DNA of 64,000 nt from positions 1,550,001 through 1,614,000 of the forward strand of contig NZ_CP155576.1 in the NCBI RefSeq assembly GCF_039693965.1, given 5' to 3'. How positions within the stretch are numbered: the stretch's first letter is position 1; each line of letters opens with the position of its first letter. The notes beneath the pieces were generated by a model. The model saw only the letters and a list, made by a program, of their open reading frames with translations, was not told the DNA's origin and did not search any database. This DNA is from Moraxella sp. K1664. Its GTDB lineage: Bacteria; Pseudomonadota; Gammaproteobacteria; Pseudomonadales; Moraxellaceae. Positions 27,877-59,200 of this stretch are shown piece by piece. Made by a program: the position numbers and the translations under genes.

Positions 27877-27894
27877 ATATCAAAAACACAATAA

Positions 27895-28013
27895 ACTTCC
27901 TGCAAAACTAGTTTTCCGCTCGCCCTGAGCTTGTCGAAGGGTGGCGGAAAACCGTTATGGTTCGACAGGCTCACCACGAACGGTTTTCCTTAATTCGGGG
28001 TTTTGCAGGAAGT
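27895..28013. repeat. compound palindromic repeat upstream of argB
   Basis: An inner REP-type block (27912-27988) combines CCGCTCGCCCTGAGCTTGTC and GGTTCGACAGGCTCACCACG segments. These are the Moraxella copies of a widespread 'GTTCG...GAGC/GCTC...CGAAC' repeat. It is framed by a perfect 14-base inverted repeat, ACTTCCTGCAAAAC (27895-27908) and GTTTTGCAGGAAGT (28000-28013). Related inner blocks are at 37585-37662 (inside macB) and 59124-59200. It ends 22 bases before the argB start. Confidence 0.75.
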
Positions 28014-28017
28014 CTAA

Positions 28018-35196: not shown

Positions 35197-35558
35197 ATGG
35201 CAGGCGTGGTTAATTACAAAACGTTACCAATTTACCATAAAAATTTATAAAAAATACTTAGGGTTTAATTGTTGTTTAAAACAAAAATTTTATAATAGTT
35301 GTTGGGTTTTTAAAAATTGCATTGGTTAAATTTAGATTTTTTAAGACAATTTTTAAGATAAATGTAAATTTGATAAAATTAGAACTAAATGAATTGTTTA
35401 AAAATTAATCATAATATAGGATAAATTGTTATTTATCCTGCAAACCTATCGTTAATTATGTCAAATTTAAAAACCTTATTTTTTATCAATATTAATTCTC
35501 AAAAATACCAATTTTTTTTAAAATCAATCTCTATTCTGCTATTTTTTTGGAAGAAACC
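35197..35558. other. AT-rich leader of macAB with an inverted repeat
   Basis: This 362-base gap is very AT-rich and lacks ORFs. AGGATAAAT (35418-35426), TGTT, ATTTATCCT (35431-35439) is a perfect 9-bp inverted repeat about 120 bases before macA. It is a candidate operator, or the terminator-like hairpin of holA without a T run. AAAACGTTAC at 35218-35227 matches the half-site of the fimX-upstream inverted repeat. Confidence 0.4.
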
Positions 35559-36863
35559 ATGTCCATCACCAAAAAATCCAAATTCCCCCTAAAATGGCTT
35601 ATCATCGTCCTTGTGTTGGGGGCGATTGGGGTTGTCGCTTATCAATTCTTAAAACCAAAACCCACCCCACCGTCCTACATCACTGCCGATGCGGTCATGG
35701 GCGACATTGAAAACACAGTCATGGCATCGGGCAAGGTCAAGCCCATTTACAGCGTGGATGTGGGGGCTCAGGTATCTGGGCGGATTGTCAAGCTGTATGT
35801 GGACGTGGGTGATGAAGTCAAAAAAGGCGACATAATTGCCCAAATCAATCAAATAGAACAAAAGAATGCCGTCTCCAATGCAGGTGCTAATTTGCGGCAA
35901 GCACAGGCAAATCTTGCTCAGGCTAAGGCCAATTTGGCATCTGGCGAAGGCAGTGTGGCAAGTTCACAGGCCATGTTGCAAGCACGCCTTGCTGAACTAC
36001 AAAAAGCCAAACAAACCTTTGCTCGTTTGGAGGAGCTTTTAAACATTGATGCAATCAGTCGCCAAGATTATGACGATGCCAAAAGTGCGGTAGAGATTGC
36101 CACAGCCAATGTGCAAGTGGCAAGAGCAAATGTTCACAATGCCAAAAATGACGTTGTCTCTGCCCGGGCCAATATCCAAAGCCAACAAGCAAACATTAAC
36201 AAAGCCCAAAACAATCTATCTACTGCTACTGAGGATTTGAGTTATACTACAATCGTTGCTCCGATGGATGGCACGGTCATCGCCATCACCCAAAAAGAGG
36301 GTACAACGGTAAATGCCATGCAATCCGCTCCAACCATCGTTACGCTTGCCGACCTAAGCCGTGTTCGTATTAACGCCCAAATATCAGAGGCAGACGTGGT
36401 AAATGTAAGTGCCAATATGCCTGCTCGTTTTAACATTATTGGTAACACTCAAAAGCAGTTTGATGCCACACTCACAGGGGTAGAACCTGCTCCTGAGAAA
36501 ATCAGCACCAACAGTAATACCGATTCTGCGGTGTATTATATCGGTTATCTTGATGTGGATAATACTGAACGCAAATTTCGTATTGACATGACCGCACAGG
36601 TCAGCATTATTACCGATTCGGTCAAAAACGTGCTGACCATACCGTCATCTGCTTTAAAAGGAGATGGCAAGGAGGGTAAATATAGTGTACAAGTACTGAC
36701 AAATGATGGCATCGCCAAACCCGTGGAGGTGCAAGTGGGGCTAAATAATCGTATTGATGCCGAGATTAAATCAGGGTTAAACGTCGGTGATAAAGTCGTC
36801 ATTGGTGATTCAAATAGCCAAGGTCAAGACGAACAATACCAATACAGTCCGTCCATACGTTAG
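35559..36863 (+). CDS. macA: MacA-like periplasmic adaptor subunit
   Basis: This membrane-fusion protein of the MacAB-TolC efflux/secretion pump has 434 residues. It shows an N-terminal membrane helix (about 11-28), a lipoyl half-motif (GAQVSGRIVKLYVDVGDEVKKGD, read in parts), a long alpha-helical hairpin (about 100-215) rich in Ala/Gln/Asn, the second lipoyl half (TTIVAPMDGTVIAI) and a beta-barrel domain. The frame opens at TTG 35547, but ATG 35559 is better placed. It is the first gene of the macAB pair. Members of this family export macrolides, siderophores or lipopeptides. Confidence 0.93.
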   Translation: MSITKKSKFPLKWLIIVLVLGAIGVVAYQFLKPKPTPPSYITADAVMGDIENTVMASGKVKPIYSVDVGAQVSGRIVKLYVDVGDEVKKGDIIAQINQIEQKNAVSNAGANLRQAQANLAQAKANLASGEGSVASSQAMLQARLAELQKAKQTFARLEELLNIDAISRQDYDDAKSAVEIATANVQVARANVHNAKNDVVSARANIQSQQANINKAQNNLSTATEDLSYTTIVAPMDGTVIAITQKEGTTVNAMQSAPTIVTLADLSRVRINAQISEADVVNVSANMPARFNIIGNTQKQFDATLTGVEPAPEKISTNSNTDSAVYYIGYLDVDNTERKFRIDMTAQVSIITDSVKNVLTIPSSALKGDGKEGKYSVQVLTNDGIAKPVEVQVGLNNRIDAEIKSGLNVGDKVVIGDSNSQGQDEQYQYSPSIR

Positions 36864-36874: not shown

Positions 36875-38920
36875 ATGAAAATCCCACTCATACAAATAAA
36901 AAATCTGGTGCATGAGTTTTCTGCTGGCGATACGACTGTCCGTGTTTTGCATGGACTTGATTTGACTTTGTATCAAGGCGAGATGGTTGCCATTATCGGT
37001 CAGTCAGGCTCAGGCAAATCCACGCTCATGAACATTTTGGGCTGTCTTGACAAAGCCACAAGCGGAAGCTATACCATTTTTGGCAAATCTGTGGACGACA
37101 TGGATAGTGAAGAGCTTGCCAAGCTTAGACGTGAGCATTTTGGCTTTATTTTTCAGCGTTATCACTTGCTTGGCGACATCAACGCCCTTGACAATGTTAC
37201 CGTCCCTGCTGTCTATGCAGGCATGAACACCACCAAAAGGCGTGAGCGAGCCACCGAACTACTTACCCAATTAGGCTTGGGCGAGAAAACCACCAACCGC
37301 CCCAATCAGCTCTCAGGCGGTCAGCAACAGCGTGTTTCTATTGCAAGGGCTTTGATGAATGGGGGTGATATTATCCTAGCAGACGAGCCGACAGGGGCGT
37401 TGGATAGTGGCTCTGGCAAGGAAGTCATGAACATCTTGCACCGCCTAAAAGATGACGGACACACCATTATCATGGTAACGCACGACCCGAGTTTGGCAAG
37501 CCAAGCCGAGCGAGTGATTGAGTTAAAGGACGGGCATATCATTGCTGATTATTATACTGATGACAAACTTGCTGATACTTCTAAGTTTTCCGTTCGCCCT
37601 GAGCCATGCCTGCGGGACAAGGAAAACCGTCATGGTTCAACAAGCTCACCACGAACGGTTTTAAGCCCTATTAGCAAAAACACCTTTGACTCAAAAAACG
37701 CCCTATTTGGCGTGATAGACCGCCTAAAAGAAGCCTTTAAAATGTCCATGTATGCCATGATGGCACATAAAATGCGTACACTTTTGACCATGCTTGGGAT
37801 TATCATTGGCATCGCCTCTGTTGTGTCTATCGTGGGACTTGGGCAGGGTTCACAAGCTAAAATCTTAGCTGACATCAATGCACTGGGCACAAATACCATC
37901 ACCGTGATAGACGGTTATCCCTTTGGCGACCCCAGACGGCGGTTTGGACAAGATAATCTGACCGTGGCAGATGCCAAAGCCGTTGCTGACCAACCTTATG
38001 CCCTGTCGGTAAGCCCCATGGTCAACAAATCGGTTAATATCCGCTACCAAAACCAAGACACGACAGGCACAGTAACGGGCGTGGGTAAGGATTATTTGTC
38101 CGTTACAGGCGAAAAATTGGCTATGGGGCAGATGTTTGATGAAACCAGTGTCGCCACGTCCGCCCAAGATGTCATCATCGACCAAAACGCCTATAAGACC
38201 TATTTTAACAGCGAAGGCAACCCTATCGGGCAAACCCTGCTCATCGGCAACGTCCCTGCCCGTATCGTGGGCGTGTTGTCCGAAAAAACATCGTCCTTTG
38301 CCCGCACCAGCAACTCGCCCACCGTCTATCTGCCTTATACCACCGTCATGTATCGTATGCTTGGCAAAAATACGGTTGACCGCTTTGTCGTGCTGATTGA
38401 TGATGACACACCGTCCGCCATTGCCGAGACTGCCATATCCGAGCTTATCAAATCACGGCACGGCACGGACGATTTTAACATCATGAACACCGACAGCATC
38501 AAAGAAACGGTGCAATCCACCACCACCGCCATGACCATGCTTATCTCATCGATTGCGATTATCTCGCTTATCGTGGGCGGTATTGGCGTGATGAATATCA
38601 TGCTTGTGTCGGTTACCGAACGCACGAGCGAGATTGGCGTGCGTATGGCAGTCGGGGCAAGGCAGTCGGATATTTTGGGACAATTTTTGATAGAAGCGGT
38701 GTTGGTGTGTATCTTGGGCGGTGTTTTGGGAATTCTGCTTGCCTTTGGTGTGGGTAGTCTTATCAATAAATTTGGGGGCGACAGCGTGGGCGTGATTTAC
38801 TCACCCCTATCTATCGTGGTTGCCTTTGTCTGCTCAACGCTCATCGGCATTGTGTTTGGCTTTTTGCCTGCTCGTAATGCGTCAAGGCTTAATCCTGTGG
38901 ATGCGTTGGCTCATAACTAG
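36875..38920 (+). CDS. macB: MacB-like ABC transporter with a repeat-derived linker insertion
   Basis: This ATPase-permease of the MacAB-TolC system has an N-terminal ABC domain (about 1-230). It shows Walker A GQSGSGKSTLMNI, signature LSGGQQQRVSIARAL, Walker B ILADEPTGALD and H-loop VTHD. The first membrane helix is at about 300-320, a large periplasmic domain runs to about 555 and three C-terminal helices follow. At 681 residues it is about 30 longer than E. coli MacB. Residues 237-263 (SVRPEPCLRDKENRHGSTSS and flanks) are encoded by a palindromic REP-type repeat at 37585-37662, in frame, within the linker between the ATPase and membrane parts. The reading frame and all motifs remain intact, so the protein is probably functional. 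Confidence 0.93.
   Translation: MKIPLIQIKNLVHEFSAGDTTVRVLHGLDLTLYQGEMVAIIGQSGSGKSTLMNILGCLDKATSGSYTIFGKSVDDMDSEELAKLRREHFGFIFQRYHLLGDINALDNVTVPAVYAGMNTTKRRERATELLTQLGLGEKTTNRPNQLSGGQQQRVSIARALMNGGDIILADEPTGALDSGSGKEVMNILHRLKDDGHTIIMVTHDPSLASQAERVIELKDGHIIADYYTDDKLADTSKFSVRPEPCLRDKENRHGSTSSPRTVLSPISKNTFDSKNALFGVIDRLKEAFKMSMYAMMAHKMRTLLTMLGIIIGIASVVSIVGLGQGSQAKILADINALGTNTITVIDGYPFGDPRRRFGQDNLTVADAKAVADQPYALSVSPMVNKSVNIRYQNQDTTGTVTGVGKDYLSVTGEKLAMGQMFDETSVATSAQDVIIDQNAYKTYFNSEGNPIGQTLLIGNVPARIVGVLSEKTSSFARTSNSPTVYLPYTTVMYRMLGKNTVDRFVVLIDDDTPSAIAETAISELIKSRHGTDDFNIMNTDSIKETVQSTTTAMTMLISSIAIISLIVGGIGVMNIMLVSVTERTSEIGVRMAVGARQSDILGQFLIEAVLVCILGGVLGILLAFGVGSLINKFGGDSVGVIYSPLSIVVAFVCSTLIGIVFGFLPARNASRLNPVDALAHN
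37585..37662. repeat. REP-type palindromic repeat inside macB
   Basis: About 78 bases containing CCGTTCGCCCTGAGCC and GGTTCAACAAGCTCACCACG-type arms and closing GAACGGTTTT. It is the same repeat as at 27912-27988 and 59124-59200. It encodes 26 codons without a stop. Confidence 0.8.
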
Positions 38921-59123: not shown

Positions 59124-59200
59124 GAAAACCGTTCGTGGTGAGCTTGTCGAACCATAACGGTTTTCCGACCCTTCGATAGGCTCAGGGCAAACGGAAAACC
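59124..59200. repeat. REP-type palindromic repeat near tRNA-Glu
   Basis: Two inverted arms, CCGTTCGTGGTGAGCTTGTC and a CTTCGATAGGCTCAGGGCAA segment, are joined by ATAACGGTTTTCCGACC. It is the same family as 27912-27988 and the macB insert. A 7-base direct repeat CTAGTTC flanks it (59100-59106 and 59200-59206). Confidence 0.75.

Follow-up and report, generated by a model that had tools for sequence, protein, structure and literature searches.

The macB-type gene of Moraxella sp. K1664 contains one copy of a palindrome that is repeated across the genome; as judged from its sequence, this copy is read in frame within an intact and functional-looking gene. Very probably, a copy of the repeat entered the linker of MacB without bringing in a stop codon and was retained since it merely lengthened a flexible linker. 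In our best reading the insert is tolerated, probably selfish, and situated in a linker of variable length, like the rickettsial palindromic elements (RPEs) and the intragenic REPs of Di Nocera et al. (2013). The phenomenon is thus already known, and it is for this repeat family and this genus that no report was found. Searches of PubMed Central articles with open licences returned no report of in-frame palindromic insertion in Moraxella or of this repeat family, and no paper was found there with 13 letters of the repeat core.

The palindromic repeat within macB

The analysis covered a 64-kb stretch (hereafter the window) of the 2.78 Mb genome of Moraxella sp. K1664 (G000; other G-numbers denote the genomes of relatives). 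Repeat copies were scored with R1, a sequence-only model of the repeat made from 19 copies, from which the macB and mfd copies were excluded and in which the 59124 copy of the window was included. The following features of the window are relevant here:

27911..27988, + strand: intergenic repeat copy (R1 91.5 bits; MITE-like outer arms at ~27889-28015, by eye)
35547..36863, + strand: macA-type membrane fusion protein gene adjoining macB (ORF; HlyD_D23 and biotin-lipoyl-like domains)
36875..38920, + strand: macB-type ABC transporter gene (681-aa ORF, insert included, frame intact)
37514..38014, + strand: divergent macB tract (ORF nt ~640-1140, ~500 nt; from identity to the nearest relatives)
37565..37696, + strand: predicted disordered inter-domain linker, residues 231-274 (AlphaFold2 pLDDT <50)
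37585..37662, + strand: REP element in macB (78 nt; encodes residues ~238-262, FSVRPEPCLRDKENRHGSTSSPRTV; R1 and BLAST)
59124..59199, - strand: intergenic repeat copy (R1 83.9 bits; one of R1's own 19 copies)

The preliminary description had reported a REP-type palindrome in the MacB linker at 37585-37662, and both the element and its frame were found as described (R1 74.9 bits, E = 2.9e-22 in the 64-kb window; open 681-aa ORF). The two further copies that it had placed at 27912-27988 and 59124-59200 were likewise recovered by R1 at the scores given above, and BLAST identity of the macB copy to these intergenic copies was 82% and 84%, respectively.

The 681-aa protein contains the Pfam domains ABC_tran (residues 25-173), MacB_PCD (302-522) and FtsX (559-674), and its best PDB matches are MacB. 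The NCBIfam MacB equivalog was the best-ranked match, with a score of 798.5 bits that is below the cut-off of 966, and the nearest named MacB records came from Psychrobacter and Acinetobacter. With the ABC, periplasmic core and FtsX domains in one chain and a MacA-type neighbour, the protein has the make-up of a MacB transporter. A misassembly artefact or a dead macB gene is accordingly a very improbable source of the insert: the abundance of the repeat in the genome favours assembly errors, but the assembly is a single contig and 99.99% complete, a second genome carries an insert at the same site, and the 681-aa frame is intact with all three domains present.

The repeat itself is a palindromic, two-hairpin REP of ~78 nt, many copies of which are intergenic. 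BLAST of the macB stretch against G000 (40 of 116 candidates scored) gave at least 45 places at E ≤ 10, of which 40, the macB copy included, had E < 1e-13, and the remaining 5 were 14-base matches at chance level. Allowing up to 3 mismatches, the core motif matched G000 61 times, with the macB copy among the matches, versus 0 times for the reversed control. R1 yielded at least 122 rows at E ≤ 1, corresponding to at least 95 non-overlapping places; as 150 of 1552 candidates were scored, both counts are minimum values, and chance matches may be present among the weakest rows. At least 139 and 130 R1 matches were present in the relatives G005 and G002, respectively, and 21 of 22 repeat-bearing plasmid records were from Moraxella.

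According to the preliminary description, the match would be a coincidence if orthologues carried the same linker residues without nucleotide similarity to the intergenic repeats. The orthologous insert of G006 is similar to the repeat at the nucleotide level (R1 40 bits, E = 7.5e-10), which makes coincidence very unlikely. The linker sequence is variable among relatives, and this speaks for a linker that merely resembles the repeat; set against this homologous copy, the E value of 2.9e-22 and the empty core-motif control, such a resemblance by chance can be regarded as practically negligible.

Next to these data on the DNA, the AlphaFold2 model of MacB (36 sequences, mean pLDDT 81) had pLDDT values below 50 at residues 231-274. 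This stretch contains the entire repeat-encoded peptide, and the solved MacB chains in the PDB align on either side of the insert. The repeat-encoded stretch of MacB is probably floppy, as predicted by the model. The idea that the insert occupies essential-type domains was not supported: it lies between domains, in a predicted disordered linker whose length varies among relatives. The comparison with rickettsial palindromic elements held up in this respect, the insertion being in frame and in an inter-domain linker. The protein had also been described as about 30 residues longer than usual. It is longer, but the difference amounts to 18-19 aa relative to its three nearest relatives (matches of 662-663 aa by coordinates), and the PDB contains three full-length MacB chains, of 654, 664 and 671 aa.

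Distribution of the macB insert among relatives

The macB gene was searched in 22 genomes, with relatives sampled as one genome per species. Matches at E ≤ 1e-100 were obtained in 17 genomes, the linker being read in each of them. The strain comparison proposed in the preliminary description placed the insert in 2 of these 17 congeneric genomes, G000 and, in a decayed form, G006. It was absent from the three nearest relatives, whose proteins are 92-95% identical to that of G000 and which have an unrelated, shorter filler in the MacB linker. The MacB proteins of G000 and G006 have the residues L.DT in common before the insert; the residues PxSKNTF after the insert occur in both and also in the insert-free proteins of G008 and G016. 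The two inserts have diverged from one another in sequence. An exact empty macB site was present in none of the 17 genomes, because the relatives have other filler there.

It was considered whether the insert might be adaptive, with a longer or charged linker altering the way in which the pump is coupled to ATP hydrolysis. Persistence of the insert in two species and its position between the ATPase and membrane halves are in line with such a role, but the linker span (VTHD to MRTLLT) varies from 77 to 105 aa over the 17 congeneric proteins, the insert region is predicted to be disordered, the same repeat occurs in unrelated proteins, and the two orthologous inserts have diverged. We therefore regard an adaptive insert as improbable.

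The insert lies in a ~500-nt tract of macB in which G000 and G005 are 80.1% identical, versus 92.6% before and 94.5% after the tract; the identity between G005 and G002 within the tract is 89.8%. These identities suggest that the tract was probably recombined in, carrying the insert, although its divergence could be due to fast evolution instead. Read most simply, the data point to an old insert that arrived with the recombined segment. A separate divergent stretch was observed in macB of G010 at ORF nt ~1500-1620, with 67-82% identity to G000, G005 and G002, so recombination may be frequent in this gene.

In-frame copies in other genes and their folding

All 95 places in G000 were checked for an open frame across the repeat, and 3 of them were in frame well within real genes, namely macB and two sites in mfd. 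For the genus, at least five in-frame sites were found in four genes (macB, mfd twice, dxs and birA). A sixth candidate site lies in a DUF2339 ORF of G014 (R1 E = 1.3e-7), and this gene is probably an additional in-frame carrier. Because the genus has at least three further genes with the repeat in frame, the macB case is a real event of a known kind. In-frame repeats of this sort had been called rare outside RPEs, a claim that is not supported in view of these sites and of the intragenic REPs catalogued in 2013 (PMC3733652).

Both mfd insertions are held by one ORF of 1224 aa in G000 (L186 3932-7606). Site 1 is a full repeat in opposite orientation that encodes 29 aa between the UvrB-like part and D3. 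Of 20 genomes, G000 and G005 have it, and it was not observed in the remaining 18, with the G009 sequence read only from about site 1 onward; exact empty sites, with uninterrupted sequence, were present in G002, G001 and G010. Site 2 is a single hairpin encoding 15 aa (R1 E = 0.001) in 1 of 20 genomes (G000), and it is situated inside D3 (Pfam 429-523), unlike the inter-domain inserts.

The two other genes emerged from 25 R1-match loci of five other genomes, in which two more in-frame copies were identified, in dxs and birA, both of G006. In dxs, where the Transket_pyr and Transketolase_C domains flank the insert, the only carrier among 9 aligned genomes was G006. The dxs site is variable in length, with different fillers in G009 and others; the G019 match equals the insert-bearing query in length, and G019 had no R1 match at E ≤ 0.01. 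The birA insert lies beyond the ligase domain, at the domain border, in 2 of 21 genomes: G006 and, decayed, G014 (R1 E = 0.02, and 0.2 in a larger locus survey; counted by alignment to G006). One of the insert-free genomes, G019, has a different long filler in birA. Inserts were absent from most orthologues (15 of 17 for macB, 18 of 20 for mfd site 1 and 19 of 21 for birA), and the seven repeat-encoded peptides that were computed are all hydrophilic, with GRAVY values of -0.80 to -1.32. Since there are orthologous empty, filled and decayed sites, the fate of the inserts can be followed.

Another 80 loci in G005 (40), G008 (20) and G014 (20) yielded no additional in-frame site. In-gene counts for relatives are lower bounds, because these genomes were examined in part: G002 for macB, mfd, dxs and birA only, G006 for the loci of 8 of 28 rows, and G005, G008 and G014 partially. 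Several candidates were discarded. The match at 1714866 near a DegV-like ORF (named by eye) is not intragenic, as the probable start lies downstream of the repeat. A match at 1029519 in a short ORF (39/48 aa) and ORFs in the loci L291, L385 and L006 were excluded from the count as short and unrecognised, and weak matches at L017 and L265 (E 0.2-0.6) were taken as chance.

Hairpin folding was calculated for intergenic and coding copies. The intergenic copy at 27902-27998 had a folding energy of -36.7 kcal/mol (z -3.1). For 32 other full-length G000 copies (64 strands), a set that leaves out macB and mfd and may include non-intergenic copies, the median was -35.4 kcal/mol with a z of -3.9 (upper quartile z -2.8), and the energies ranged from -48.4 to -18.8 kcal/mol, with a weakest z of -0.8. 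The macB copy of G000, the left arm of which is altered, had a value of -24.3 kcal/mol (z -1.4 and -1.7 in two computations). On the sense strand, the values were -13.3 (z -0.2) for the macB copy of G006, where the fold is nearly gone, -35.2 (z -2.7) and -31.1 (z -1.1) for the mfd copies of G000 and G005, -29.6 (z -3.3) for dxs, -22.4 (z -3.1) for birA and -14.5 (z -1.4) for DUF2339. The macB fold is weak yet inside the range of the other copies, the z of the G005 mfd copy is weaker than that of macB in G000, and three coding copies (mfd of G000, dxs and birA) are clearly folded. This pattern fits uneven decay after insertion, with no sign of upkeep in macB.

According to a suggestion in the preliminary description, an mRNA stem formed by the repeat may delay translation between the MacB domains; these values make such a role highly improbable. 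The strong folding of most other G000 copies, the stem retained by the macB copy, the z values of -2.7 to -3.3 of the three other coding copies and an inter-domain position that would suit a pause are in its favour, but in the macB copy the left arm is altered and the fold is weaker than that of most copies, including the median copy, and the G006 orthologue barely folds. As several coding copies still fold notably, a hairpin role may exist in individual genes.

Taken in sequence, the preferred reading would run as follows. Within the genus, a REP copy of ~78 nt would have inserted into the macB linker of an ancestral or donor lineage. The inserted frame would have been free of stops, and the insert would have been kept because its only effect was a longer flexible linker. 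Following insertion, similarity to the repeat would fade while the frame stayed open, as suggested by the second copies in macB of G006 and birA of G014. The repeat would move as a selfish element, the insert would be neutral or nearly neutral, and the present macB allele may have reached G000 by recombination of the ~500-nt tract.

Relation to known elements and routes of spread

Intragenic REPs of several species were catalogued in 2013 (Di Nocera et al., PMC3733652). In that paper, REPs with GTAG or CGTC tags are described as mostly intergenic, with some in frame within genes. Dimers or groups that encode 20-30 aa make up more than half of the intragenic inserts, certain genes contain two insertions, many of the targets function in DNA synthesis/replication and repair, and flexible linkers or loops are suggested as neutral sites. 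Likewise, the Moraxella repeat is found in a repair gene, mfd, with two insertions in one gene. It differs from the GTAG/CGTC REPs in that neither tag is a constant feature: among the 19 aligned copies, GTAG occurred in 6, CGTC in 6 for one strand and in 1 for the opposite strand, and no constant end tetranucleotide of this kind was found. The main text of PMC3733652 contains neither 'Moraxella' nor 'mfd'. Our observations widen the range of in-frame palindromic insertion by a genus in which no report of it was found, and mfd with its two insertions is a further case for the question, posed by Di Nocera et al. (2013, PMC3733652), of whether REPs in repair genes are due to chance or adaptive.

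RPEs (Ogata et al., 2000, 2002, as described in PMC10969869 and PMC3733652) are palindromic, lie in frame in unrelated genes and are predicted to be compatible with protein folds; they are ~150 bp long and nearly half of them are within ORFs (PMC10969869). Going by these descriptions, the Moraxella repeat is similar in being palindromic and in frame in unrelated genes, and it combines many intergenic copies with an in-frame copy in a functional-looking gene. Compared by description, it is unlike RPEs in its length of ~78 nt and in having 3 of 95 places in frame within genes. It is possible, if rather doubtful, that Moraxella possesses its own RPE-like system, in which a bare palindrome on a RAYT-independent route would repeatedly donate in-frame disordered peptides to the linkers of housekeeping genes, mfd twice among them, with some peptides later kept for use.

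In PMC5896051, QMITE2 of Coxiella burnetii is described as a small MITE that has some short REP forms and occasionally occupies ORFs in frame, and the Moraxella element resembles MITEs of this type, so described, in its small size and occasional in-frame position. Some copies do spread inside MITEs, of which they are the core and which have terminal inverted repeats. Every one of the 26 loci read in G005 (L315-L340) contained the same MITE-like unit of 133 nt with the repeat as its core; the unit has 11-bp inverted ends (GGTATTGTTAA), and 21 of the 26 loci had an exact 8-bp target duplication, neighbouring copies possibly being counted twice. The in-gene copies are unlike MITEs, and unlike these G005 copies, in that inspection by eye revealed neither terminal inverted repeats nor target-site duplications around them.

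A REPIN consists of two inverted REP hairpins as one unit, and the Moraxella repeat is like REPINs in having two inverted hairpins in one unit. REPINs are mobilised by RAYT transposases (PMC3116915, PMC8266576). No RAYT was recognised for the Moraxella repeat in a Y1_Tnp search of G005 and at the one of three G000 Y1_Tnp loci that was read. The three G000 matches had equal scores, and the locus read adjoins a TnpB-like ORF (IS200/IS605 type, by eye); no Y1_Tnp match was obtained for G005, whose repeat matches number at least 139.

Classed by their outer arms, 93 places in G000 fell into classes of 16 and 15 places, 33 places with a constant IS-like flank, and 29 places in the remaining classes. 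The constant flank of the 33 places lies directly before CTGAGC of the left arm, for example at C1 780524-780589 and 786466-786531. At these two places the repeat is preceded, at a distance of 64 nt, by the end of an IS110-family transposase ORF (one of the two identified by Pfam), and an IS110 element may target the repeat. At C1 647033 and 2264239 of G000 (L141 and L166), where the ORF context is identical, a probable IS3-type transposase ORF (HTH_21) is interrupted out of frame by the repeat. A 213-aa DUF3800 ORF at C1 2032182 (L177) has its C-terminal end encoded by the repeat, and similar flanks were found at other places.
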